From NCBI RefSeq assembly GCF_002009425.1, contig NZ_CP019936.1:1909297-1973296 (forward strand): a DNA stretch of 64,000 nucleotides, given 5' to 3'. This DNA is from Thiosocius teredinicola (GTDB lineage Bacteria; Pseudomonadota; Gammaproteobacteria; Chromatiales; Chromatiaceae). Made by a program: the position numbers and the translations under genes. Below the pieces are notes generated by a model that saw only the letters and a list, made by a program, of their open reading frames with translations, searched no databases and was not told the origin of the DNA. Within the stretch, counting starts at the first letter, position 1. Each line of letters starts with the position of its first letter. Positions 2,837 through 21,472 of the stretch are shown here, piece after piece.

Positions 2837-2841
2837 CCTAC

Positions 2842-5800
2842 CTAGCTGTCGAGATCGAAGACCGTCGAATACACCAGGCGTTCTTCGATCACCCGCCGTT
2901 GGAAAACCGTACCGTCACGCCGATGCGGCACCGTATGGTCGGTGTAGTAGCGTTCGAACTCGCGCAGCATCAATCGGCGCGGCAGGTCGCCGGTATCGGG
3001 TAATGCTGCGCTCGTCTTCCAGATCTGCGGATCGATGAACTGCAGAAAATCCGGCATCTTTTCGGCGAGCTCGAACTGATCGCGCGCACCGGGGGCGAGT
3101 TCGATCGCGGCGTCGAGCATCAATGATGCGCCGCTACGCAGATCGACCTTGCGAGCTTGGTCTGCTGCTTGCACGGTTGTCTCGACGCCGAACTTGCCGG
3201 TGTCGAGTATCGGCAGTCCATCGAACACACTGCTGCCCGGTTCGGCGGTCTGCGATGTTGCCAGGGTGGAGTGATCGGTCCATGCGAGATCGCTGTCGAT
3301 GTTCTTGTCACGCGTCTGCAGTACGAGTTCGACGCGGTTGCGGCCGGTCTCGAACGGGCCATTGGCGAACGACACGAATAGGTAATCTGAATCGACGGTG
3401 TATTTCATCGGCCCGGCATGCGGTACTGTGCCGAACAGGGTCAGGTCGACGCTATCTCCAGTGCGGCCATACACAGCGCGGCGCCGCGGCAACACCTGAA
3501 CGAACTCGCTGAGCACGACCTTGGAGATTCTCGCGTTGGGCAGCGCGTTGGGTTGGTAGCGCACCAGCGCCAGCCGGATGAACGGCATATAGCTGCGGCC
3601 CGGCTCGAGTTCGATATCGCAGTACCAGAGCTTGCGTTGTTCGTCCCAATGCACGCGATGACCGACGACGTGCGCCGGTGGTTCGTTGGGTTTTTCCTGC
3701 AGCGCGACCGGCTCGTCATGAACGCGAGCGGGGAAGTCGCTGACCTTGATGCTCGCCTTGGGCGAGCCGGTCTCCCACAGCGGATCGAGTCCCCATTGTG
3801 TGACGAAAGGTTGCATCGCATCCGGCATGTTCTTGAATGGTTTGTCGTCGCCGAACAGCATCACGCCCAACAGTTCGCCGTCGCCTGAACTGAACCACGG
3901 GCGGTCTATCCACACCCGCAATCCGTTGCCGTAGCGGATAACCTGTTGCTGTTTGCCGCCGGCAATCTCTTGCTGTTGCCAGCGGAAGGTCGGTACCACG
4001 TACAACACGCGCGGGTCGTCCGGCGGTTCGCTGGCCAGCACACGGGTGTTCTGTTCCGAACCGTTCGGATCGACCAGGATCGTTGCGCCGGCATCTGTCG
4101 GGTCGGCGACCAACACATGGTCGCCCAACGCGATAGGGCCAAGTCGCGTTATCTGCTCGGTGTCGGCATACAGCGACGGCGGCAGGTACTCGCGAAAGCG
4201 CGTCGTGGCACGCACCCGGTAGCGAATCAGGCGGAACTTGCTGTCGCCCAGTTCGTGACGGTCGGCGCGCGCGCGATCACGGTTCGGGTCGACCTGGGCA
4301 TTCTTGACCGCACTCGCAAGATCGAACTTGTTGATGTGATTCTCATGCAGCGGGATCTCGCCCAATTGGCCGTGGCCGCTGATACGTTCCGGGCCATCCT
4401 TTTCGAGATCGTCGATCCACTCTTCCCAGTCGGCCTCGATCTCGAACTTGCCAGTACTCGGACCGTGCAACACGACCGTCCGGCAAACGAGGTTGGCATA
4501 GCTTGCACCGCTCGGCCGGTGGATGCTCATCTTGATCAGCTCCGGCAGGCAGACCGGCTGCTGCGTGGCGTGCACCATCGTCAGCTTGCGGTAGGGCGAC
4601 AGCATCCAGTGGGTACCGAGTTGTGCCATCACCATGATGTCGTGCTTGGCGCCGCTCTTGATCCAGTGTGGCAGGCCGAAGCTGGGCAGATGCTTGGTAT
4701 GGACGAAGCTCGCATACGCAAGCCGTACGATCTCGCCCTTGGCGATGAACAGCGTCAGTTCGCGCGTTTCGGCATCCCACTTCGGCATGCCCGCATCCTT
4801 GTGGTTCACGCTGCACGGCAATTCATCGTACTCGGTATCGCGTTCTTGCAAAACGATGCGGCAGCCGAGGTTGTTTGGCCACGGCTGGTCGTAGCCGACG
4901 ACGAGCACCAAACGCTTGTCCGGGTCTTCGAGCACCATGCAACCCGGCCCGAGCACGGTCGGCCCGCTGACGCCGGGAATCTGGTGGCCGGGACGGGCGT
5001 AGATCGCGACGCCACCGGCGGCATCGTCCGGCAGGTAGGGCGTTTCGAGCTGGGCTTCACGGTGAACGATGTATTGTCCGCCGGCCATGCGATCGCCGAC
5101 CGGGTTCTCCGGCGTCGGCAGAGCAGGCGGTACGCTGGTCGTTGTCGCGACCGTGCTCAATGCCTGCGGAGTTACGAGTTCGATCTGTGCGCCGGGTATC
5201 GGGTCGTACAGCGTGCCGGCCTCGCGTGCGGCAATTGCATAACCCTGTTTGATGCTTGTCGGGTCGGCAAAGAAGGAGTCGAACAGGCCGTGGTGCTCGC
5301 ACTGTTGCTGCGATGCCTTCGGCGGTACGACATGGCGCTCATTTTGTTCGAGGTACTCGAAGTCAGCCGACGCCGGTAGCTGGACGGCATCTTTGAACGG
5401 TTGCGACTTGAGGTATTCGCCGCTGCTCAGATCGAAGTTGCTGCGGATGACCATGCGTTCGAGCGATTCACCCTCGCTGACGCGATGGCGGTGCACCAGC
5501 GCCGGTGGGTCGACCGGCTCGAAGCGCCAGTAGCCGACCGCTGCGGTCGCGTGTTCGAGCTCGCCGAGCGAGGGATCGTCGACAGCGAGACTGTTACCCG
5601 CCAAGTCGACAATACGTGCACGCAGGCGGTAACGCTGTCCGAAACGCAAGCGTGGCAGCGTGCCTTTCAAGGCCTTGAACTCGGCGACGATGCCGTTGCC
5701 GTTGCTGGCCTCGTCGGTGACGGTGGTCGGCACCTCGCCCTGCACCTGGCTGTCGTCTGCCTGCTGCGCGCGCAGGGTCAGACCCGGGCGCGGCGTACAC

Positions 5801-7539
5801 AGGCTCCAGCCGGTCCAACGAAACATCGATTCGTGCAGATAGTGATCGTCGGGGTTCGCACTGTCATCAGGGCTCTTGGAAGTGGATGCGCCCTTCACAT
5901 AGCCTTCGTCGGGCGGCAGTGGCAGCTCTTGATCGTTGGCGACGACGCGGTAGCGACCTTCGCGGGCGCAAAGGCTCATCCAGTGTCCGGGTGACATCTC
6001 GTCTTTGACCGGCGCGACATCGACGCGGTAACCGCGCAACAGATCTTCGGCAAACAGCACGACTGTGTCGGCATTGTTGTTCTCGATGGCGGCGTTCTTC
6101 AGGGTTGCCGATGCGGCCGTCTCGGCAACCTGCTCGGCACGTCCGTGACGCGATACGCCAATGCCCCCTGACCGCAGCGCGGCGACCGGTTGACGATCAC
6201 CGGTGGTGTAGGTGACCTCGCCGTCGCTCTGCAGCGAGTTCAGGCTGCGGGTCAGCAGGTTCTGGCTGGTGACGGTGAAGCCGACCGTCTTTAATGCGGC
6301 GCCATCGGGATCGACCTGGTAGACATCGAACGGTGAATCGGGCTCGTCTTTGTCGGCCACGCCCCAGCCGTCGTCGGCGCCCTCGAGGCGCAGCAGGCCG
6401 CGCCTGTGGTCGTGACTGCGCTCACGGGTAACGAAGCGTTCTTGGTCGGCATACCAGGCGGTGATCGGCCGACCATCCGTGGTGCCGGGTGCGCCGCTGC
6501 CATCGATCAGCAACTGCATCTGACCGACTGCCTGACCGCCACCACTGCTGACCAGTTGGCGGAACACGCGGTTGTCGGTGATCGCACAGTCGATCACCAG
6601 CCCAAGGCGGCGCATCAGCTCCGGATAGTCGGCATACGAGGCGATGATCCGATGGAAGTCGAATTCCGGTACCTCGGGCGGCTCGGGAATGTCGTCGAAC
6701 GACGGGCGGCGCGTCCGACGTTGTTTATCGGTAGGCGTGGTGCGCCGATAGAAACGATCGGCCTGATAGAAGGCGTATTCGTCGGCGCTGTTGAACTGGT
6801 TCATCACGTTCGCGCCGGGGCCGGGAAGAGCTGGGTTGCGCCAGTCCGCAGGTAATACCCGTAGCGGAAAACCCGATTCGGGCAATGGCAGCCCATTGCT
6901 GTCCAACTTGTTACCGGTGCTCGTGCCTTGATAGGGGCTCTTGCCCGAGAACACCGTGTTGTCGAGATAGGCGTCGGTCGATTCGGGGTTGCCGCGATCG
7001 AGGAAGCGCGAGAATCCCGGCAGCACGAAGGTGCGCGACTCATTGCCGAAGTCGCGCGTTATCGTACGCGTGCCCAGGTCGTCGAGCATGCCCTTCAATG
7101 AAGAATCGGCGTTGTCCCACGGCAACAGGGTCGGGTGGTCTTTGCGCGCATCCACCGCGAGTTGGCCATAGTGGCGGCGCATAAAGCCCAGCACGTTGCG
7201 TACGGCGAACGAGCGCAGGTTGACCTTGCTCATGTCTTGGTAGACGAAACCGGCGACCGGCGTGGTCGGCGTCAGCAGGGTTTGCCATAGCTGCGAGTTG
7301 GGTTGACTGAGCAGGCGCAGGCCGACGTCTTGATTGTTGATGCGCAGGCTCAGTCGGCGTCGACCGAGTGCCGCGGGCCAGTCGAGGAAGTCGGGAAAAG
7401 CCTCGAGCTTTTGCTGATCGGCCGCCTCCGGGGTCAGGCGCGGCGATACCACGATCGATATACGATGCGTGTCGCGGCCTTGTTCGTCAGTGATGCGACC
7501 GTAGGGCAGTACCGTCCAGAGAATATGTTGTTTGGCCAT
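2842..7539 (-). CDS. giant protein of unknown function, 1565 aa (second gene of a two-giant operon)
   Basis: I do not recognise this family. The frame is uninterrupted for 1566 codons, with the same G+C-rich codon use as its neighbours. It has no signal peptide, no clear membrane span and no nucleotide-binding or protease motif that I could see. The N-terminus (MAKQHILWTVLPYGRI, then ISIVVSPRLTP and FPDFLDWPAALG) looks like a soluble beta-rich domain. Around residues 632-650 is RYRLRARIVDLAGNSLAVDD, a phrase typical of Ig/FnIII-like beta-sandwich repeats. The rest is rich in Pro, Gly, Asp, Val and aromatic residues, consistent with strings of beta domains. The start has GGAG 11 bases upstream and follows the stop of the other giant gene by 27 bases, so both are probably cotranscribed. 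A structural or surface role is possible but is inference only. Confidence 0.85.
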   Translation of the reverse strand: MAKQHILWTVLPYGRITDEQGRDTHRISIVVSPRLTPEAADQQKLEAFPDFLDWPAALGRRRLSLRINNQDVGLRLLSQPNSQLWQTLLTPTTPVAGFVYQDMSKVNLRSFAVRNVLGFMRRHYGQLAVDARKDHPTLLPWDNADSSLKGMLDDLGTRTITRDFGNESRTFVLPGFSRFLDRGNPESTDAYLDNTVFSGKSPYQGTSTGNKLDSNGLPLPESGFPLRVLPADWRNPALPGPGANVMNQFNSADEYAFYQADRFYRRTTPTDKQRRTRRPSFDDIPEPPEVPEFDFHRIIASYADYPELMRRLGLVIDCAITDNRVFRQLVSSGGGQAVGQMQLLIDGSGAPGTTDGRPITAWYADQERFVTRERSHDHRRGLLRLEGADDGWGVADKDEPDSPFDVYQVDPDGAALKTVGFTVTSQNLLTRSLNSLQSDGEVTYTTGDRQPVAALRSGGIGVSRHGRAEQVAETAASATLKNAAIENNNADTVVLFAEDLLRGYRVDVAPVKDEMSPGHWMSLCAREGRYRVVANDQELPLPPDEGYVKGASTSKSPDDSANPDDHYLHESMFRWTGWSLCTPRPGLTLRAQQADDSQVQGEVPTTVTDEASNGNGIVAEFKALKGTLPRLRFGQRYRLRARIVDLAGNSLAVDDPSLGELEHATAAVGYWRFEPVDPPALVHRHRVSEGESLERMVIRSNFDLSSGEYLKSQPFKDAVQLPASADFEYLEQNERHVVPPKASQQQCEHHGLFDSFFADPTSIKQGYAIAAREAGTLYDPIPGAQIELVTPQALSTVATTTSVPPALPTPENPVGDRMAGGQYIVHREAQLETPYLPDDAAGGVAIYARPGHQIPGVSGPTVLGPGCMVLEDPDKRLVLVVGYDQPWPNNLGCRIVLQERDTEYDELPCSVNHKDAGMPKWDAETRELTLFIAKGEIVRLAYASFVHTKHLPSFGLPHWIKSGAKHDIMVMAQLGTHWMLSPYRKLTMVHATQQPVCLPELIKMSIHRPSGASYANLVCRTVVLHGPSTGKFEIEADWEEWIDDLEKDGPERISGHGQLGEIPLHENHINKFDLASAVKNAQVDPNRDRARADRHELGDSKFRLIRYRVRATTRFREYLPPSLYADTEQITRLGPIALGDHVLVADPTDAGATILVDPNGSEQNTRVLASEPPDDPRVLYVVPTFRWQQQEIAGGKQQQVIRYGNGLRVWIDRPWFSSGDGELLGVMLFGDDKPFKNMPDAMQPFVTQWGLDPLWETGSPKASIKVSDFPARVHDEPVALQEKPNEPPAHVVGHRVHWDEQRKLWYCDIELEPGRSYMPFIRLALVRYQPNALPNARISKVVLSEFVQVLPRRRAVYGRTGDSVDLTLFGTVPHAGPMKYTVDSDYLFVSFANGPFETGRNRVELVLQTRDKNIDSDLAWTDHSTLATSQTAEPGSSVFDGLPILDTGKFGVETTVQAADQARKVDLRSGASLMLDAAIELAPGARDQFELAEKMPDFLQFIDPQIWKTSAALPDTGDLPRRLMLREFERYYTDHTVPHRRDGTVFQRRVIEERLVYSTVFDLDS

Positions 7540-7566
7540 GACCTATGGATCTCCGGCTGATGCCTC

Positions 7567-10500
7567 TCAGGCGAACGCCTCGCAGTACTCGCGCCAGGCG
7601 TAATCTGTTTGGTCGTTGATCAGGGCGAGTTCGTCCGGCAACGGTAGCGATGGGTCGAAGCCAAGCATCTGGCGCAATGTCGGGTCGCCGTTCGAGCCGG
7701 CAAACTTGCGCTCGCAGGTGATCGTCACGCTGCCTGAGAACACCAGTACCTGTACCTCGATGGTCAGCTCGGCCTTGCCGACGCACTTGCCGCTTTCGAA
7801 TTCGTAGCGCAGCTCCAGATACAGTTCGAGCGAGGCGCTGATCAAGCCGAGTACATCGACGTGTCCGCCGAGGCGGAAGTAACCGGTCAACGACGACTCG
7901 TCCATCTCCATGCGGTAGTAAAGGCCGGCCATCACATGCACGCCGCCGGAGGCAACACCGAAATCGACCGAGATGCTGGCGCCGAATTCGAACGAGGCCT
8001 CGAGGATCTGCACACCGTGCGGGTCGATGGTCACACCGAAGAATCCGCCGCCGCCGAACATGTACACCGTAAGCAGGAACGGTTGTTCGCGCGTGCAGAA
8101 GTTGAAGCGCACGCTCAGTGGCTGACCGATGAAGGGTACGCAGAAGCCGGCACCGAGACTCAGGTTGTTGATGTTGAGTACACCAACGGAGATGCCGGGC
8201 AGAGAGATATCGAAGCCGGCATCGATGCCTTGCGGTGTGATGTCAAGGTAGGGTGGGTCGGAGAAGCCGTCGAGCGGGATCAGGTCGCGCAGGGTCTCGA
8301 CGAAACTCAAGGGGCCGACGAACTTGATGTCCGACAGCAGCACATCGACATCCATCTTCGACGAACTGTCGACCGCAAACTCGATCTTCTCGAAGTTGAG
8401 TTCGAGGAAGCTGGCGGGCGCAATCAACACCAAGTCGAAATGTTTCAGACTGCACACCACGCCGATCTTGGGGGTGCCGCCGCCGTTCTTCTTGACCTTG
8501 GCCTCGACCGCGACGATGAATCCGCGTTCGTCGTTGGCGCGGAAGATGGGATCGTCGCTGTTGGGGTTGGCACCGGGCAGCCACCAGCTGCTGATGCGCG
8601 GGTTCCAGTCGAAGCGGATCGTCAGCTCATCGCCGGTCAGCAGCTCGACCAACTGCAGCAAGTCGGCGCCGTCGGTCAGTTGTTCGATGATGCTCAGCGC
8701 GTCGAGCACAATCTTGCGCGGTGCGCCCGACAACAGATTGAAGTCGCTGATCGCGGGTTTGAATCCACCGAAGGCGTTGCCGACCGCCTCGATGCGGGTC
8801 TTCAGTTCGGCGGCGTTCGAGAACAGATCGCCGAGCTGGCCAGGGTCGCCGACGATGTCGTCCAACGCCGTGTACAGCGCCAACCCCTGGTTGACCAGGT
8901 TGGCGAGCTTGTTGAGATCGGCGAGAAAGGCGTCGAGCTTGTTGGCGAACGACAGCGCCTGTTGACGAAGGCCGGCAGCCAGAGAGATACCGTTGATCGG
9001 CGTATTGACGGCATTGACCAAGTCCGTGATGCGATTGCGCGCCGTGGCGATGTGTCCGGCGACGTCACCCAGCGGCGCGGCGAGCGTAGCGTCGTTGATC
9101 GACTTGCCTTGCAACGACTGCAGGTCACCGGCCACGTCATCGACGGCTGCGGTGAGCTGCGTTGCGGCGTTTTGCAGCGGCGCAACCTGAGCCGCTGCGT
9201 AGCCTGTAGCCTGCGCCAGGATATCGTTCAGTGTGCCGTTGAATACTGAAATCGCGGCGGACGCGATGTCGGCGGGCTGCGAAGCGAGGTTGGCGACCAA
9301 GGCGTATGTACGGCCAAGCCCGGTGATGAACGATTCCAGTTGGGTGCTGGCCTCGCTGATGAACTTCGGTACCTGATCGGTGTTGTCGGCGAGATTGGCC
9401 ACCGCCTTGATGATCTCGGCCAGCGGTATGCAGCCGAACAGCAGCGGTAACGGCAAGTCGTCCGGTGAGGTCGGGAAGCCGGCGCCATCCGGCACCGAGC
9501 CGGATATGAAACTGCCGACGTCGCCCATCATCGGGCCGGTCAATCGTGACAAGGCCTTGGGTTTGAGATTGGGCTGTACATAGCCGCCCGAGCGGTCGCC
9601 TTGGCTGGAAAAATCGAGCAACGCCATGCCGGGCTTGTTGGCGACGTCGGCGAATATCTGCCCCGCATTTGCGCCGAACCCGTGTCTCACATAGTGCGCA
9701 TTCCAGGTCAGCTCGTTGTTCGCATCGGTGCCCCCGAGGTGGGCGAGTGCGCCGACCCGCGCGGTGACGAGTTTGACTCCTGGAAAGCACACCGGACGCG
9801 TGAAGCCCTCGCTGGCGTTGTGCAGTGTTGCGTTGCCGACTTCGGCTTCGATATCGAACTGCACCTCTTCTGTTTCGACCGTGGTGTCGCCCGCCTTGTT
9901 GCTCGCGGCGAGCGCAACCCGCTGGCCCTTGAACGGTACCGTGTTGAAACTGGTCTTGTTTCGATACTCGGCCTGCGCCTGCGACATGTTGAAATCGGCC
10001 GACGGAAAATCGCCGGGCGCGGCCAGTGTGTTCTCGATGAAGATCATCGGCATATCGAATGCGACGGTGCGACCGTCGAGATCGGTCGCCGTACATTGGA
10101 AGCGAAATGCCTGGTCGGCCACATGTGGCCAGAACAACAGTTGGCCCTGGCCGTTGATATCGGATGGGTTGGTCGTCGGATCATCCAGGTTGGGAGTTAC
10201 CTGGGTAAGGATGCGCACCTTGGAAAACGGCAGCTGGTACAGATAACGCTTGGTGTCGGCGATGTCGCGCAGGCTTTCGTGCAGCGAACCGCCATAGGTG
10301 CGCTCTCGCTCCCGCACCACGATGAACAGCCGTTGACGCAGGAACGCGGCGTTGTCAGCGCGGTATTCGATGCCGGGTTTGAACTGACCGGGGTTGTCGT
10401 CGTCCGGGATCAAGGCCCCGTTGTGAAACTTGCGCTCGCTCACCTTGACCAGCGATACGCGGTGGCCGAACGGCAGCAGGAAACCTTTGTAGACGATCCG

Positions 10501-11868
10501 CACATAGTGATCGCGCGCCATGCTTGCGCGGTGCACCCACTCTTCCACCGACATGCCGGTCGGGGGCTCCCACGCGCCGCGCGAATCCAGCCAACCGCCG
10601 AGTGCACTCAGCATCAACAGATGGGTATCGACGGGTTGCGGCGTGAACCCGCGGCGCGAAAAGTTCGATGACAGATGCGCGATCTGGAAGCGATCGAAAT
10701 CGTTCATCGGCATGCGGAACGGCGCATTGTGCGGCGCGGGCAGCGGGTTGCTGGTGCTGGGAAAGTCGCCGTTCATCGTCACCGTCGATGACTCGCCGGT
10801 CTTGGCCCAGACAGCACGGATGGTCCGCTGCGGGTCGGCATACGGCGGTTCGATGAAACTGCCGTTCGTACCGGGTGCGACCAGGCGCGTGTGCCACAGC
10901 TCGGTATGGCCGGTGGCTTCGGAGGTGACGGGAGCCGCGGCATGCCGCCAGCGTTCGTTTGCATGCGGCGAGATCACCAGCCGCCAGGGCAGCTCGATCG
11001 CGGTGCGCGTGGCGCTCGGCAGCGCCGGTTTGGGCGGGTTGGGCCGCACCGACAGATCCGGAATCCGTATCGCCTTGTCGGCAGGCACGGGTTTCAAGGC
11101 CTCGGCTGCACCGAATTGACGCAACCTGAGCGTGGCGTCGTCACGCTGGACTGCAGCGAGGCGTAGCGAGCGCACCGCAAAGCCCGCCAATGCTCCGCGC
11201 TGCGCCGGCGAGAGTTTCTGAATCGCGGCCTTGTCGAACAGGCTGCCGAACTCGATCGTCGGCCCGGTCGACGGGGGAGGCCGGCTGTTGTTGGTAACAC
11301 TCAAAGCGAGTGATTCGCAGGCCTCGAGCACGCCTTCGAGTGTGTACGGGATGTCGAAGTCGTTGGGTACGCGAAACACGATGCGCGATTCATCGGCGAT
11401 GCGTGCACGCACCGGCGGGTCGGGCGGGGTCTCGCCACTACCGCCGGCATCCGGGTCGTCCGGCGGCAGGTCGGTTCCGGGCGGCTCGGCTTCGTAGAAG
11501 GTCTGCTCGATGATCGCCTGCGGCGGAAAGTGCAGGATCAGGTAGCTGGTCCGGTTCGACGTCTTGACCAAGCGGGGCGGATCGCCCGAGACGATATCCA
11601 GGTTGCGGGCCTCGACGCGCAGCGCCAGCAGATCGTCGCTGCGCACCACGGCGTTGCCGGGGCGATTCTTTTCGAACAGGTTGCCGATGTGATCGAACTG
11701 GAACAGCGGCGGTTTGAAGATGTCGGTCACCAACTCGGCGGTGATGTCGTTGTTGATGACCGTGATCGCGTCGGATGCGCCGGCTACGACGGTGCGTGTC
11801 GTGGCATTACGAATGGCTCGCCTGAGTGTCGTGGTCCGCGTTTCACCCTGCTTGCGTCTTATGGCCAT
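7567..11868 (-). CDS. giant protein of unknown function, 1433 aa (first gene of a two-giant operon)
   Basis: I do not recognise this family. The frame stays open to 11955, but the ATG at 11868 is preferred: it has AGGAG 7 bases upstream and gives a basic start, MAIRRKQGETRTTTLRRA. Four parts are visible. Residues 1-130 are mixed. A Pro/Gly/Asp linker lies near 133-152. A beta-rich region follows to about 800, with LPWRLVISPHANERW and TELWHTRLV near 300-330. Residues of roughly 820-1080 look helical, amphipathic and Ala/Leu/Asp-rich, like a long coiled or bundled rod. The last 350 residues are a Gly/Phe-rich beta region (MFGGGGFFGV, FEFGASISVDFGVASGG) ending with several Cys. No signal peptide is seen. 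It precedes the 1565-aa gene by 27 bases, and the two probably form one functional unit. Confidence 0.85.
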   Translation of the reverse strand: MAIRRKQGETRTTTLRRAIRNATTRTVVAGASDAITVINNDITAELVTDIFKPPLFQFDHIGNLFEKNRPGNAVVRSDDLLALRVEARNLDIVSGDPPRLVKTSNRTSYLILHFPPQAIIEQTFYEAEPPGTDLPPDDPDAGGSGETPPDPPVRARIADESRIVFRVPNDFDIPYTLEGVLEACESLALSVTNNSRPPPSTGPTIEFGSLFDKAAIQKLSPAQRGALAGFAVRSLRLAAVQRDDATLRLRQFGAAEALKPVPADKAIRIPDLSVRPNPPKPALPSATRTAIELPWRLVISPHANERWRHAAAPVTSEATGHTELWHTRLVAPGTNGSFIEPPYADPQRTIRAVWAKTGESSTVTMNGDFPSTSNPLPAPHNAPFRMPMNDFDRFQIAHLSSNFSRRGFTPQPVDTHLLMLSALGGWLDSRGAWEPPTGMSVEEWVHRASMARDHYVRIVYKGFLLPFGHRVSLVKVSERKFHNGALIPDDDNPGQFKPGIEYRADNAAFLRQRLFIVVRERERTYGGSLHESLRDIADTKRYLYQLPFSKVRILTQVTPNLDDPTTNPSDINGQGQLLFWPHVADQAFRFQCTATDLDGRTVAFDMPMIFIENTLAAPGDFPSADFNMSQAQAEYRNKTSFNTVPFKGQRVALAASNKAGDTTVETEEVQFDIEAEVGNATLHNASEGFTRPVCFPGVKLVTARVGALAHLGGTDANNELTWNAHYVRHGFGANAGQIFADVANKPGMALLDFSSQGDRSGGYVQPNLKPKALSRLTGPMMGDVGSFISGSVPDGAGFPTSPDDLPLPLLFGCIPLAEIIKAVANLADNTDQVPKFISEASTQLESFITGLGRTYALVANLASQPADIASAAISVFNGTLNDILAQATGYAAAQVAPLQNAATQLTAAVDDVAGDLQSLQGKSINDATLAAPLGDVAGHIATARNRITDLVNAVNTPINGISLAAGLRQQALSFANKLDAFLADLNKLANLVNQGLALYTALDDIVGDPGQLGDLFSNAAELKTRIEAVGNAFGGFKPAISDFNLLSGAPRKIVLDALSIIEQLTDGADLLQLVELLTGDELTIRFDWNPRISSWWLPGANPNSDDPIFRANDERGFIVAVEAKVKKNGGGTPKIGVVCSLKHFDLVLIAPASFLELNFEKIEFAVDSSSKMDVDVLLSDIKFVGPLSFVETLRDLIPLDGFSDPPYLDITPQGIDAGFDISLPGISVGVLNINNLSLGAGFCVPFIGQPLSVRFNFCTREQPFLLTVYMFGGGGFFGVTIDPHGVQILEASFEFGASISVDFGVASGGVHVMAGLYYRMEMDESSLTGYFRLGGHVDVLGLISASLELYLELRYEFESGKCVGKAELTIEVQVLVFSGSVTITCERKFAGSNGDPTLRQMLGFDPSLPLPDELALINDQTDYAWREYCEAFA

Positions 11869-12105
11869 CGCTGTGCTCCTGTCGCACGGGGTTCGTGGCT
11901 GCTTATTCTTGAACGCTGTTGGCCTTGCGAGTGAATACGGCACGCGAGCTCGCAAATGCGAAGGCTGAGCAAAGCGCGATCTCGGCGGGTCTCTCGAGCG
12001 GCGGGTGGGAAGCGCGATACTCGTTTTCAGTCAGTATTGCACAGGCTTTGAAACGCGCTAGGGCAATGCCGTCAATTGGTCATGCGAAGGTGATGGACTA
12101 ACCGC
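11869..12105. other. intergenic region between the giant-gene operon and thrS
   Basis: This stretch should hold the leftward promoter of the giant operon; the Shine-Dalgarno for 11868 lies at 11876-11880. I found no convincing -35/-10 pair on the minus strand and no open frame with coding character. The rightward thrS leader begins near its right end. Confidence 0.5.
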
Positions 12106-12172
12106 TATACTGGAGCACCCCGGGTACGCTCCGGGGTTTAGGAGACGGAGCCGATCGCAGGTCGGCTTTTTA
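12106..12172 (+). promoter_or_regulatory. candidate thrS promoter and attenuator-like leader
   Basis: A -10-like TATACT sits at 12106-12111 without a clear -35. A G+C-rich hairpin follows at 12117-12138 (arms ACCCCGG and CCGGGGT). A second hairpin, GCCGA/TCGGC (12150-12166), runs into five T residues at 12167-12171, the layout of an intrinsic terminator. It lies about 85 bases before the thrS start, so transcription must read through it to express thrS. Seen: the hairpins and T run. Inferred: attenuation or leader control of thrS. A further hairpin, GTGGCC/GGCCAC, occurs at about 12211-12231. Confidence 0.5.
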
Positions 12173-12254
12173 CTTGGAGATCACCGCTTTAGTGCACGGT
12201 CTCTTCACGTGGCCTTTGGTAGGGGCCACCACTGAACTATGGAGATGCTGCAGC

Positions 12255-14168
12255 ATGCCTGTTGTAACCCTTCCCGATGGCTCCAGCCGGAGCTTTGACA
12301 ATCCCGTAACCGTGGCAGACGTTGCCGCCGATATTGGACCCGGTCTCGCCAAGGCCGCGTTGGCCGGCAGTGTGGGCGGCCGTATGGTCGACACCTCGTA
12401 CCTGATCGACAGCGATACCGATCTGGCGATCATCACCGCCAAGAACGAAGAAGCGCTCGAGTTGATTCGGCACGATGCCGCGCACGTGATGGCGCAGGCC
12501 GTGCAGGAGCTGTATCCCGGCACCCAGGTCACGATAGGCCCGGCGATCGAAGATGGTTTCTACTACGACTTCGCACGCGAAGAGCCTTTCGGCCCGGCCG
12601 ACCTGCAGAAGATCGAAGACCGCATGCGTGAGATCGTCGGTCGTGACCTGCCGATCGAGCGCGAGGTATGGGATCGCGAACAGGCTAAGAAGACTTTCGG
12701 CGACATCGGCGAGGCCTACAAGGTCGAGATCATCGAAGACATCATCCCCGAAGGTGAAGAGGTCTCGGTGTATCGCCAGGGCGAGTGGTTCGACGTGTGT
12801 CGCGGTCCGCATCTGCCGAGCACCGGCAAACTGCCCAAGGCCTTCAAATTAATGAAGCTGGCCGGCGCCTACTGGCGCGGCGACTCGAACAACCCGATGC
12901 TGCAGCGTATCTACGGCACGGCCTGGCGCGACAAGAAAGAGCTCAAGGAATACCTGCATCGGTTGGAAGAGGCCGAAAAGCGTGACCATCGCAAGATCGG
13001 CAAGGCGCTCGACCTGTTCCATGCGCAGGATGAGGCCCCGGGCATGGTGTTCTGGCACAACCGCGGCTGGACGATCTACCTGGCGGTACAGCAGTACATC
13101 CGCGACAAGCTGCGCGACCACGGTTACCAGGAGGTGCACACGCCGCAGGTGATCGACCGCACCCTGTGGGAGAAATCCGGTCACTGGGACAAGTTCGGTG
13201 ACATGATTTTCACCACGCATTCGGAGAATCGCGACTACGCGATCAAGCCGATGAACTGCCCGGCGCACATCCAGATCTACAACCACGGGCTGAAAAGCTA
13301 TCGCGATCTGCCGCTGCGCTTGGCTGAATTTGGTTCCTGTCACCGCAACGAGCCATCGGGCACGCTGCACGGCCTGATGCGGGTGCGAAACTTCGTGCAG
13401 GACGATGCGCACATCTTCTGCACCGAAGAACAGATCCTGTCGGAAGTGCTCTCTTTTAATGATCTGCTGTTCGAGGTGTACAAGGATTTCGGCTTCGAAG
13501 AGGTCCTCGTCAAACTCTCAACGCGTCCAGAAAAACGTGTAGGATCAGACGAGTTATGGGATAAAGCTGAGAAATCACTTGAGAATGCGTTGAACGAGCG
13601 CGGGCTCGAATGGGAACTGCAGCCGGGTGAAGGCGCCTTCTACGGGCCGAAGATCGAATACTCGCTGCGCGACTGTCTAAACCGGGTCTGGCAGCTGGGC
13701 ACGATTCAGCTCGATTTCTCGATGCCGGCGCGTCTTGGGGCGACCTACATCGCCGAAGACAACAGTAAACAGGTGCCAGTCATGCTGCACCGGGCGATCC
13801 TGGGCTCGATCGAGCGTTTTATCGGCATTCTGATCGAGCACCATGCCGGTGCGTTCCCGCTTTGGCTTGCACCGGTTCAGGCCGTCGTCATGAACATTAC
13901 CGACCGCCAGGCCGAATTCTGCCGGGAAGTGGTGAAAAGCCTGCAAGATAAAGGCTTTAGAGCCGAATTAGACTTGAGAAACGAGAAGATCGGTTTTAAA
14001 ATTCGCGAGCACACCTTGCAGCGCACGCCGTACCTCTTGGTCGTCGGCGACCGCGAGATGGAGAATCGCAGCGTGGCGGTACGTACCCGTAGCGGTGAAG
14101 ATCTCGGGTCCATACCGTTGGATGAACTCATCCAACGGTTCGAAGGCGAGGTCGCGAAGCGCGCTTGA
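12255..14168 (+). CDS. thrS: threonyl-tRNA synthetase
   Basis: A 637-residue class II aminoacyl-tRNA synthetase that charges tRNA-Thr. The open frame extends upstream, but the ATG at 12255 has GGAG at 12241-12244 and matches the family start ([10 protein letters not shown]). An N-terminal TGS domain (about 1-62) precedes the editing domain, whose His73-x3-His77 lies in [10 protein letters not shown]. The catalytic core contains [10 protein letters not shown], with the zinc-binding Cys, and the motif 2 region [16 protein letters not shown]. The C-terminal anticodon-binding domain contains [15 protein letters not shown]. The length matches E. coli ThrS (642). It heads the infC-rpmI-rplT-pheST block. 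Two internal patches (about 13450-13590 and 13930-14010) use unusually A/T-rich codons such as TTA, AGA, GGA and TCA. Confidence 0.97.
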
Positions 14169-19849: not shown

Positions 19850-19926
19850 CGGAGCGTAGCGCAGGCTGGTAGCGCACCACAATGGGGTTGTGGGGGTCGG
19901 AGGTTCGAATCCTCTCGCTCCGACCA
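19850..19926 (+). tRNA. tRNA-Pro (anticodon GGG)
   Basis: A 77-nucleotide cloverleaf. The acceptor arms CGGAGCG and CGCTCCG pair fully. The D arm contains GCGCAGGCTGGTAGCGC. The anticodon stem CCACA/TGTGG encloses loop ATGGGGT, giving anticodon GGG. The T arm has GGTTCGAATCC. The 3' end continues ACCA, so CCA is encoded. It follows the merR-like gene by 59 bases. Confidence 0.96.
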
Positions 19927-19936
19927 AATCTAAAAG

Positions 19937-19960
19937 AAGCTGCCGAAGGGCGGCTTTTTT
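19937..19960 (+). terminator. intrinsic terminator of the tRNA-Pro transcript
   Basis: AAGCTGCC pairs with GGCGGCTT around loop GAAG (one T-G pair), followed by six T residues. It begins 11 bases after the tRNA CCA. Confidence 0.9.
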
Positions 19961-20080
19961 ATTGTCCAGAAGAAGCCACGATTCGAACCTCCGACATCAA
20001 AATGGCTGGTTCGACAAGGACCGGAGGTCCGCAGAACGGCCGAAGGCCGATAATCCTCTCGCTCCGACCAAATCTAAAAG

Positions 20081-20104
20081 AAGCTGCCGAAGGGCGGCTT
20101 TTTT
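20081..20104 (+). terminator. second copy of the tRNA-Pro terminator, within the tandem duplication
   Basis: An exact copy of the hairpin and T run at 19937-19960, displaced by 144 bases. As part of the duplicated unit it can act as a back-up terminator. It lies downstream of the convergent REC-GGDEF-REC gene. Confidence 0.85.
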
Positions 20105-20191
20105 ATTGTCCAGAAGAAGCCAAGATTCGAACCTCCGACATCAAAATGGCTGGTTCGACAAGGACTGGAGGTCCGCAGAACGGCCGAAGGC

Positions 20192-21472
20192 CTATTGAAG
20201 AAACCCACTTACCTTCGACAACAACAACTCTTCGTCGATCGGCCTGTGCATGTACTCGTCGGCGCCGGCGGTGTTTGCCTTCGCCAGTTGCTTCTCGCGA
20301 TCGTTGGCCGATATCAGAATCACCGGGATGCGTTGTGTTTTGGTGTCGGCTTTGAGTTGCTCGCATACCTGCACGCCATCCATGCCGGGCATGTCGATGT
20401 CCAGAAGAATCAGGTCGGGGCGCAGGCTGTGTGCGATGTCGACACACTCGTGTCCGGTCTCCAGTGTCACGATATTGCAGTGATTGCGTAGCGACTCACT
20501 CATCTGCTGCAGGTGGTTTTGATCGTCGTCGACGATCAACACGGTTTTGTGCGGTTGCTCTTTGCGCGCATAGACGCGATTGCGACCTTGTTGTTTTGCC
20601 TGATAAAGCGCCTTGTCGGCGGTTGCGACCAAGGTCTCGAGATCGGCGCCGTTGATTGAATCGCTACAGGCCACGCCGACGCTGGTGGTGACGAATTGTC
20701 CGGTGCTGGAGGATTCGTGTGGGATTTTCAAATCTTGTACGGCTTCGCGAACTGCGTTGCCCACCGTGATCGCGCCATCGAAGTCGGTGTCGGGCAGCAA
20801 CACGATGAACTCCTCACCGCCGTATCGCGCGACGATATCGTCGGGTCGATGCACGCGCGATTTGATCGCCTGTGCGACGCGCTGCAGGCAGTCGTCACCC
20901 GCCGGGTGGCCGTATCGATCATTGAACTTCTTGAAATGATCGACATCCATCATCAAGACCGAGGTGGGGCGGTTGTAGCGGTTGACCGACGACCATTGTT
21001 TGGCGGCCAGCTCATCGAAGGTACGGCGGTTGTACAGCTGGGTCAGGCTGTCGCGCTGACTCAGTGCTTCGAGCTCGGCGTTGAGCGCGTTCATTTGGTT
21101 GCGCATCGTCACGATGCGTTCCATTGCGCGAATCTTGGCGTTGAGGATCACCTGGCTGATCGGTTTGGTCAGGTAATCGTCGCCGCCGGCCTCGATGCCT
21201 TCACAGACGCTGTTGTCGTCGGACTTGCCGGTCACGAAGATGATCGGTACCCAATGGTCGCCGAACCATTCGCGCATCAAGCGCGTGGTCTCGAAACCGT
21301 TCAGTCCCGGCATCTCGACATCCATGATGATCAGATCGAAGCTGTCGTTTTCGATCAGCTGCAGCGCCTCTTCGCCGGTCTTTGCCACCACGGCCTTGTG
21401 TTGTGCCTGTTCGATGTACGAGCACAAGGCGTGGCGCAGGGTGGCGCTGTCTTCGACGAGCAGAATCTTCAC
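20192..21472 (-). CDS. REC-GGDEF-REC response regulator, diguanylate cyclase
   Basis: A 426-residue cytoplasmic protein with a GGDEF domain between two receiver domains. REC1 (about 1-120) has Asp51 in IIMDVEMPG and Lys103 in LTKPI. GGDEF (about 140-300) has the active-site GGEEF at 218-222 and an intact RxxD inhibitory site (Arg209-Asp212, five residues upstream), so it should make cyclic di-GMP and be product-inhibited. REC2 (about 308-426) has Asp358 in LILLDIDMPG, but the conserved Lys of the KP motif is replaced (YMHRPI), suggesting altered signalling. No kinase gene is adjacent. Its 3' end abuts the 144-bp duplication. Confidence 0.95.
   Translation of the reverse strand: MKILLVEDSATLRHALCSYIEQAQHKAVVAKTGEEALQLIENDSFDLIIMDVEMPGLNGFETTRLMREWFGDHWVPIIFVTGKSDDNSVCEGIEAGGDDYLTKPISQVILNAKIRAMERIVTMRNQMNALNAELEALSQRDSLTQLYNRRTFDELAAKQWSSVNRYNRPTSVLMMDVDHFKKFNDRYGHPAGDDCLQRVAQAIKSRVHRPDDIVARYGGEEFIVLLPDTDFDGAITVGNAVREAVQDLKIPHESSSTGQFVTTSVGVACSDSINGADLETLVATADKALYQAKQQGRNRVYARKEQPHKTVLIVDDDQNHLQQMSESLRNHCNIVTLETGHECVDIAHSLRPDLILLDIDMPGMDGVQVCEQLKADTKTQRIPVILISANDREKQLAKANTAGADEYMHRPIDEELLLSKVSGFLQ

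Follow-up and report, generated by a model that had tools for sequence, protein, structure and literature searches.

Hitchhiker export, in which a signal-less subunit is encoded beside the partner that bears the export signal, is documented in PMC4273604 for HybOC and PaoABC of Escherichia coli. Here we describe a pair of adjoining giant genes in Thiosocius teredinicola, carried on a stretch of 64,000 nucleotides (contig NZ_CP019936.1, positions 1,909,297 to 1,973,296; hereafter the window), in whose family some relatives of the first product start with a twin-arginine translocation (Tat)-like signal. We tentatively read the pair as an undescribed, self-contained and horizontally moving unit, encoding one two-subunit complex of about 3000 residues with a lipid- or membrane-engaging module.

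The gene pair and its distribution

The original prediction, made from the letters alone, described two giant adjoining frames 27 bases apart, and this description is borne out: the products have 1433 and 1565 amino acids (aa), and each gene has one match in the 4.79-Mb single-contig genome (Table 1). The mechanical open reading frame (ORF) of the first gene opens at 11955 (TTG, 1462 aa); the ATG at 11868, which gives 1433 aa, has AGGAG upstream. Each gene was proposed to have its own ribosome site; that of the second looks weak by eye. Native codon use is confirmed, as GC content at third codon positions is 0.80 in the first gene and 0.76 in the second, against 0.71–0.80 in four neighbouring genes. 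A sigma-70-like promoter was not found in 11700–12300, and there is no strong repeat within the two genes. The flanking genes, which we take to be bioA and thrS, have same-genus counterparts that were located in genome searches.

A single peptide pattern, run against a species-genome collection described as holding 84,980 genomes, hit 393 stretches, of which 250 are relatives of the second gene, a lower bound given the single pattern. The best 80 of the 250 were kept as loci and joined by 11 plasmid loci. Of these 91 loci, 86 have the first gene immediately upstream of the second on the same strand, and in the other five the contig ends first; the pair is conserved as adjacent, in keeping with the two-gene unit of the original prediction. 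In at least three loci one gene is split into two frames, the first gene in L017 (10661–14984) and L086 (5387–9979) and the second in L025 (25436–30974), which could be decay or sequencing error. Upstream of the pair in Achromobacter pulmonis (L039) there are two extra partial first-gene matches (1121–1792, 2939–4894), which may be what is left of a duplicate.

Plasmid records were matched ten times by the second protein and 14 times by the first; 11 of the 14 entered the pair count, two were examined later and the second C. metallidurans record was left out. The carriers are Rhizobium, Cupriavidus, Diaphorobacter and Streptomyces, joined by Sinorhizobium, Agrobacterium and Ruegeria, whose forms are distant and longer, the first gene reaching 3311 aa. 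Two additional rhizobial loci (L117, L118) again hold two adjoining giant genes. Among the distant long pairs on conjugative rhizobial plasmids, L024 is near transfer genes, L117 near an N-6 DNA methylase and L118 near SOS-related genes.

The second-gene tree (72 rows) spans 14 named phyla, many of its rows being metagenome bins; two of these, labelled Oscillospiraceae (L060) and Clostridiales (L082), may be mis-binned. Occurrence is sparse: in whole-genome searches, with the gene's own genome counted each time, the second gene was present in 3 of 93 relatives' genomes and, at the level of the phylum, in 5 of 398. The alignments used here hold 65 of 68 locus rows plus P0002 for the first protein (A3) and 71 of 78 plus P0001 for the second (A4), near-duplicates, rows with X and rows that were too short having been dropped.

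The frames had been claimed to be selected. Both genes are under purifying selection in the nine related locus pairs sampled, where the ratio of nonsynonymous to synonymous substitution rates (dN/dS) is 0.047–0.313 in 18 of 18 comparisons; this set consists of loci other than the window, with mechanical starts, and dS is above 1.5 in three pairs.

Neither protein belongs to a family named in the libraries searched, in agreement with the description of both as unrecognised. With both proteins searched, the sole Pfam match at E up to 1 is AreA_N (0.061), below its cut-off, and the Pfam family for fibronectin type III (FnIII) domains gives no profile match. NCBIfam has nothing for either, the PADLOC defence models give no family at E up to 0.1, and the solved structures contain no sequence match. 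PDB searches with 66- and 72-sequence profiles yielded nothing better than E 0.43, two odorant-binding chains at E 0.43–0.44 being chance. DUF6603, a candidate identity, was rejected, with no match at E up to 10 in G000 and G090 and no place among the Pfam matches. A phage tail, contractile injection or tape-measure protein was likewise rejected: in PHROGs the best hit is a chance-level tail-protein score of 0.013 in the helical stretch with no passing segment, none of 50,697 phage records matches, and two scans of viral contigs gave no confirmed relative. The best score in a viral structure library was 1.7e-4, at a template modelling (TM) score of 0.10. The family profiles of the two genes show no sign of mutual homology (E 0.13, probability about 0.4%). 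In annotated plasmid records both genes are labelled “hypothetical protein”, and no description of the pair was found in the literature searched, subscription papers being mostly outside its coverage. The individual folds are known; the two gene families and the two-gene system are absent from the libraries searched. Neither of the outcomes that the original prediction had named against itself, strong known-family matches or a pair not kept intact in relatives, materialised.

Signs of mobility and neighbouring genes

The bioA–thrS site was searched in all eight other available genomes of the genus, and both genes lie on one contig in five. In all five the site is too short for the gene pair, with 184–423 bases between the matches in four and 2.26 kb in one; the 2.26-kb stretch (L113, from G003) is unlike the short gaps of the four relatives. 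Another genome of the genus, G007, holds second-gene fragments elsewhere, in broken frames at 57–67% identity, and the 12 kb inspected there contain nothing that matches the first gene; as this is a draft genome, assembly error is possible behind the broken frames. In a quick tree the window's row falls in a set of 14 rows with support 96, whose other members are Pseudomonadota, presumably alphaproteobacteria; for the window, gene order suggests Gammaproteobacteria. The pair more probably arrived as one unit than was lost repeatedly.

According to the original prediction, steady co-occurrence with a secretion, phage-tail-like or adhesion system would point to a role; no such association emerged: the neighbours tested share nothing, and phage records are without a match. 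Among 72 downstream and 67 upstream ORFs, no Pfam family occurs more than twice, in a weak test that took one ORF per side, picked mechanically by length (some surely not genes), and left out six near-duplicate loci and neighbours above 1100 aa. When 946 flanking ORFs were clustered, most of the grouping reflected Achromobacter synteny; one cluster covered 17 loci and has a member that may be a GGDEF protein. Phospholipase-like neighbours occur (patatin in L017 and a gene resembling it in L081, phospholipase C in L026 and one Tle1-like gene), too few to weigh. No fixed neighbour was found among those tested.

Predicted architecture, proposed export and a possible mode of action

Structure models were made for a homologue (L068) that is 35–36% identical to the window proteins, with predicted TM scores of 0.71 and 0.74. 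Both models are mostly beta, in agreement with the original prediction, and that of the second protein begins with a strand at residue 6. Its residues 556–1200 match chains of FnIII-like domains in structure comparison, so that a beta-sandwich fold of the FnIII/Ig-like type is predicted for the second protein; the original impression of Ig/FnIII-like repeats finds support here at the level of structure but not in any FnIII sequence family match. In Streptomyces nigrescens the second protein (L021, 14119–19008) has a PG_binding_1-like insert (E 1.8e-4) and a tail rich in His, Asp and Gly. These features would suit a structural scaffold or surface assembly that serves as a coat, as a fibre or in adhesion; the hydrophobic face of the first protein (below) would then be a buried core or subunit interface. 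The FnIII-like chain, the mostly beta models, the Tat signals of some relatives and the insert of the one Streptomyces member all point this way; we regard such an assembly as rather unlikely overall.

The C-terminal sheet of the first protein, in the homologue model, has one hydrophobic face and resembles the walls of CymA, OmpG, LptD and FhaC in structure comparison. This resemblance could indicate a resident outer-membrane complex, porin-like or for lipid transport. The same sheet, however, is present in the first proteins of Actinomycetota, Chloroflexota and a Bacillota bin, no Sec signal was noticed by eye in the N-termini of the long frames, and part of the family has Tat signals instead. 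Because of the monoderm-phylum rows and the type of export, the family taken together is unlikely to be one of ordinary porins, and we consider a resident complex of this kind very improbable.

A sheet shared by bacteria classed with and without an outer membrane might also belong to a membrane-attacking factor, a two-part pore-former or antagonist that enters a target membrane through the sheet, aided in the window's clade by the helical insert. That insert has 260–288 aa in 36 of 66 first-protein rows, 140–155 in four and 22–83 in 26, and its long form in part of the family, together with the patchy spread and the relic in one same-genus genome, is consistent with such a role. Against it, the tested neighbours have no common companion such as an immunity gene, toxin families are without a match, and single-chain barrels of such size are not the usual design of pore-formers. 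Taken together, an attacking role appears quite improbable.

Export was approached with a filter for Tat-like N-termini (S/T/N/G-R-R-x-hydrophobic, then an uncharged hydrophobic stretch), applied to first-gene ORFs of at least 800 aa, of which some among the 77 are fragments. It picked out 18 of the 77 first-gene ORFs and none of the 85 from the second gene; of 1033 internal pieces used as controls, 2 passed. One positive (L101, at aa 177) is probably spurious, and a signal visible by eye in L098 was missed. With L098 scored as positive, and rows whose N-terminus is off the contig and the window left out, the Tat state changes at least five times on the tree. On pC of Sinorhizobium meliloti the gene after the second one is tatA, and the genome of the window has two TatA/B-like genes. 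This pattern suggests, at sequence level, that part of the family is exported through Tat. In the window's 33-row clade no Tat signal is recognisable, so export is not claimed for the window protein and its clade. The original remark that the window proteins have neither signal peptide nor membrane span agrees with our reading by eye, with no predictor behind it. That prediction overlooked the Tat signals of some first-gene homologues and the porin-wall-like sheet with its hydrophobic face, as well as the helical insert specific to the clade and the indications that the pair is mobile.

Conserved positions in the family include many near-invariant residues, some of them polar, which might form the active site of an enzyme complex that uses Tat because it folds in the cytoplasm; the known hitchhikers are enzymes (PMC4273604). 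The invariant residues are largely W, G, P and R, however, no enzyme family matches, and the tested neighbours offer no common maturation gene. An enzyme complex appears improbable.

Our tentatively preferred reading, a mobile two-subunit complex that engages lipid or membrane, would work as follows. Assembly of both subunits would take place in the cytoplasm. In lineages with a Tat signal the complex would then cross the membrane folded, the second subunit riding on the signal of the first. Less certainly, the C-terminal amphipathic sheet of the first subunit may bind lipid or enter a membrane, and the FnIII-like chain of the second may serve as a scaffold or recognition arm. That the two proteins bind each other we infer from their strict linkage. 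Contact with lipid or membrane, suggested by the homologue model, is the boldest step and is speculative.

Several points weigh against this reading. Linkage is all that speaks for the binding of the two proteins. For the sheet, Foldseek returns weak scores (E 3.1e-4 at best, TM about 0.1), its hydrophobic face was selected, from the very data on which it is judged, for being the more hydrophobic of the two parities, and the models come from a homologue of the identity and predicted TM scores given above. A large exposed hydrophobic surface is not expected of a Tat cargo, and the face of the sheet may therefore be buried in the protein or against the partner. Finally, 59 of 77 first-gene ORFs, including those of the window and its whole clade, lack a Tat-like start, and our confidence is slightly lowered because most first-gene ORFs have no signal. 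The strongest form of the reading, a new lipid or membrane machine in the shape of a soluble giant heterodimer, Tat-exported in part of the family, with an outer-membrane-like amphipathic sheet that works with or without an outer membrane, and encoded by two genes travelling between phyla, seems to us unlikely.

Table 1. Features of the gene pair (positions in the window; aa numbering of each product)
Feature	Position	Strand	Details or basis
First gene, product P0002	7567..11868	-	1433 aa; homologues directly upstream of second gene in 86/91 loci
P0002 aa 61-819, conserved beta-rich part before insert	9412..11688	-	alignment A3, homologue model, mapping
P0002 aa 820-1086, 267-aa insert with helical periodicity	8611..9411	-	insert-length comparison, 66 rows
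P0002 aa 1200-1395, porin-wall-like amphipathic beta sheet, C-terminal	7684..8271	-	homologue-model residues 751-948
P0002 aa 1425-1433, conserved C-terminal tail, type W..Y..AFA	7570..7596	-	alignment
Intergenic gap	7540..7566	-	27 bases; median gap of homologous pairs 14 bases
Second gene, product P0001	2842..7539	-	1565 aa, ATG start
P0001 aa 1-673, mixed helix/strand half, fold barely tested	5523..7539	-	homologue model
P0001 aa 674-1528, FnIII-like chain region	2958..5520	-	counterpart of homologue-model residues 556-1200
bioA-to-thrS-leader stretch holding the pair	~2837..12150	.	right end set by eye

Elsewhere in the window, 19908–20195 is a 144-nt tandem duplicate with 98% agreement between its copies; the first copy overlaps the tRNA-Pro gene (19850–19926) at its 3' end.

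Comparison with known systems

The libraries searched give no family name to this gene pair of about 9 kb, which is under selection and whose rows bear the labels of 14 named phyla. Should the Tat reading be right, its products would form a very large hitchhiker cargo, with which the size limit of folded Tat complexes could be probed; should the sheet really contact lipid, the design would be membrane-active and belong to none of the porin, pore-former and lipid-transfer families that we know of.

Like the HybOC and PaoABC hitchhikers, the system has, in some relatives, a signal on one subunit only and a signal-less partner encoded together with it. In contrast to them, the gene pair is far larger, matches no enzyme or cofactor family and shows no sequence relation, and most first-gene ORFs, including that of the window, have no signal. 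CymA, OmpG and LptD differ in that no sequence match to them was found; here, moreover, no Sec signal was noticed, monoderm-classed phyla are included, and the sheet is part of a giant protein. With the fibronectin and contactin chains there is no FnIII sequence match, and a common fold is no proof of kinship. Alpha-2-macroglobulin and the complement proteins are also large chains of beta-sandwich domains, and by Foldseek E-value C3, C5 and A2M rank near the top; however, TM is about 0.1 and the global root-mean-square deviation 37–62 Å, with no overall fit and no Pfam match. In its architecture and in its distribution, the pair matches no system found in this analysis.

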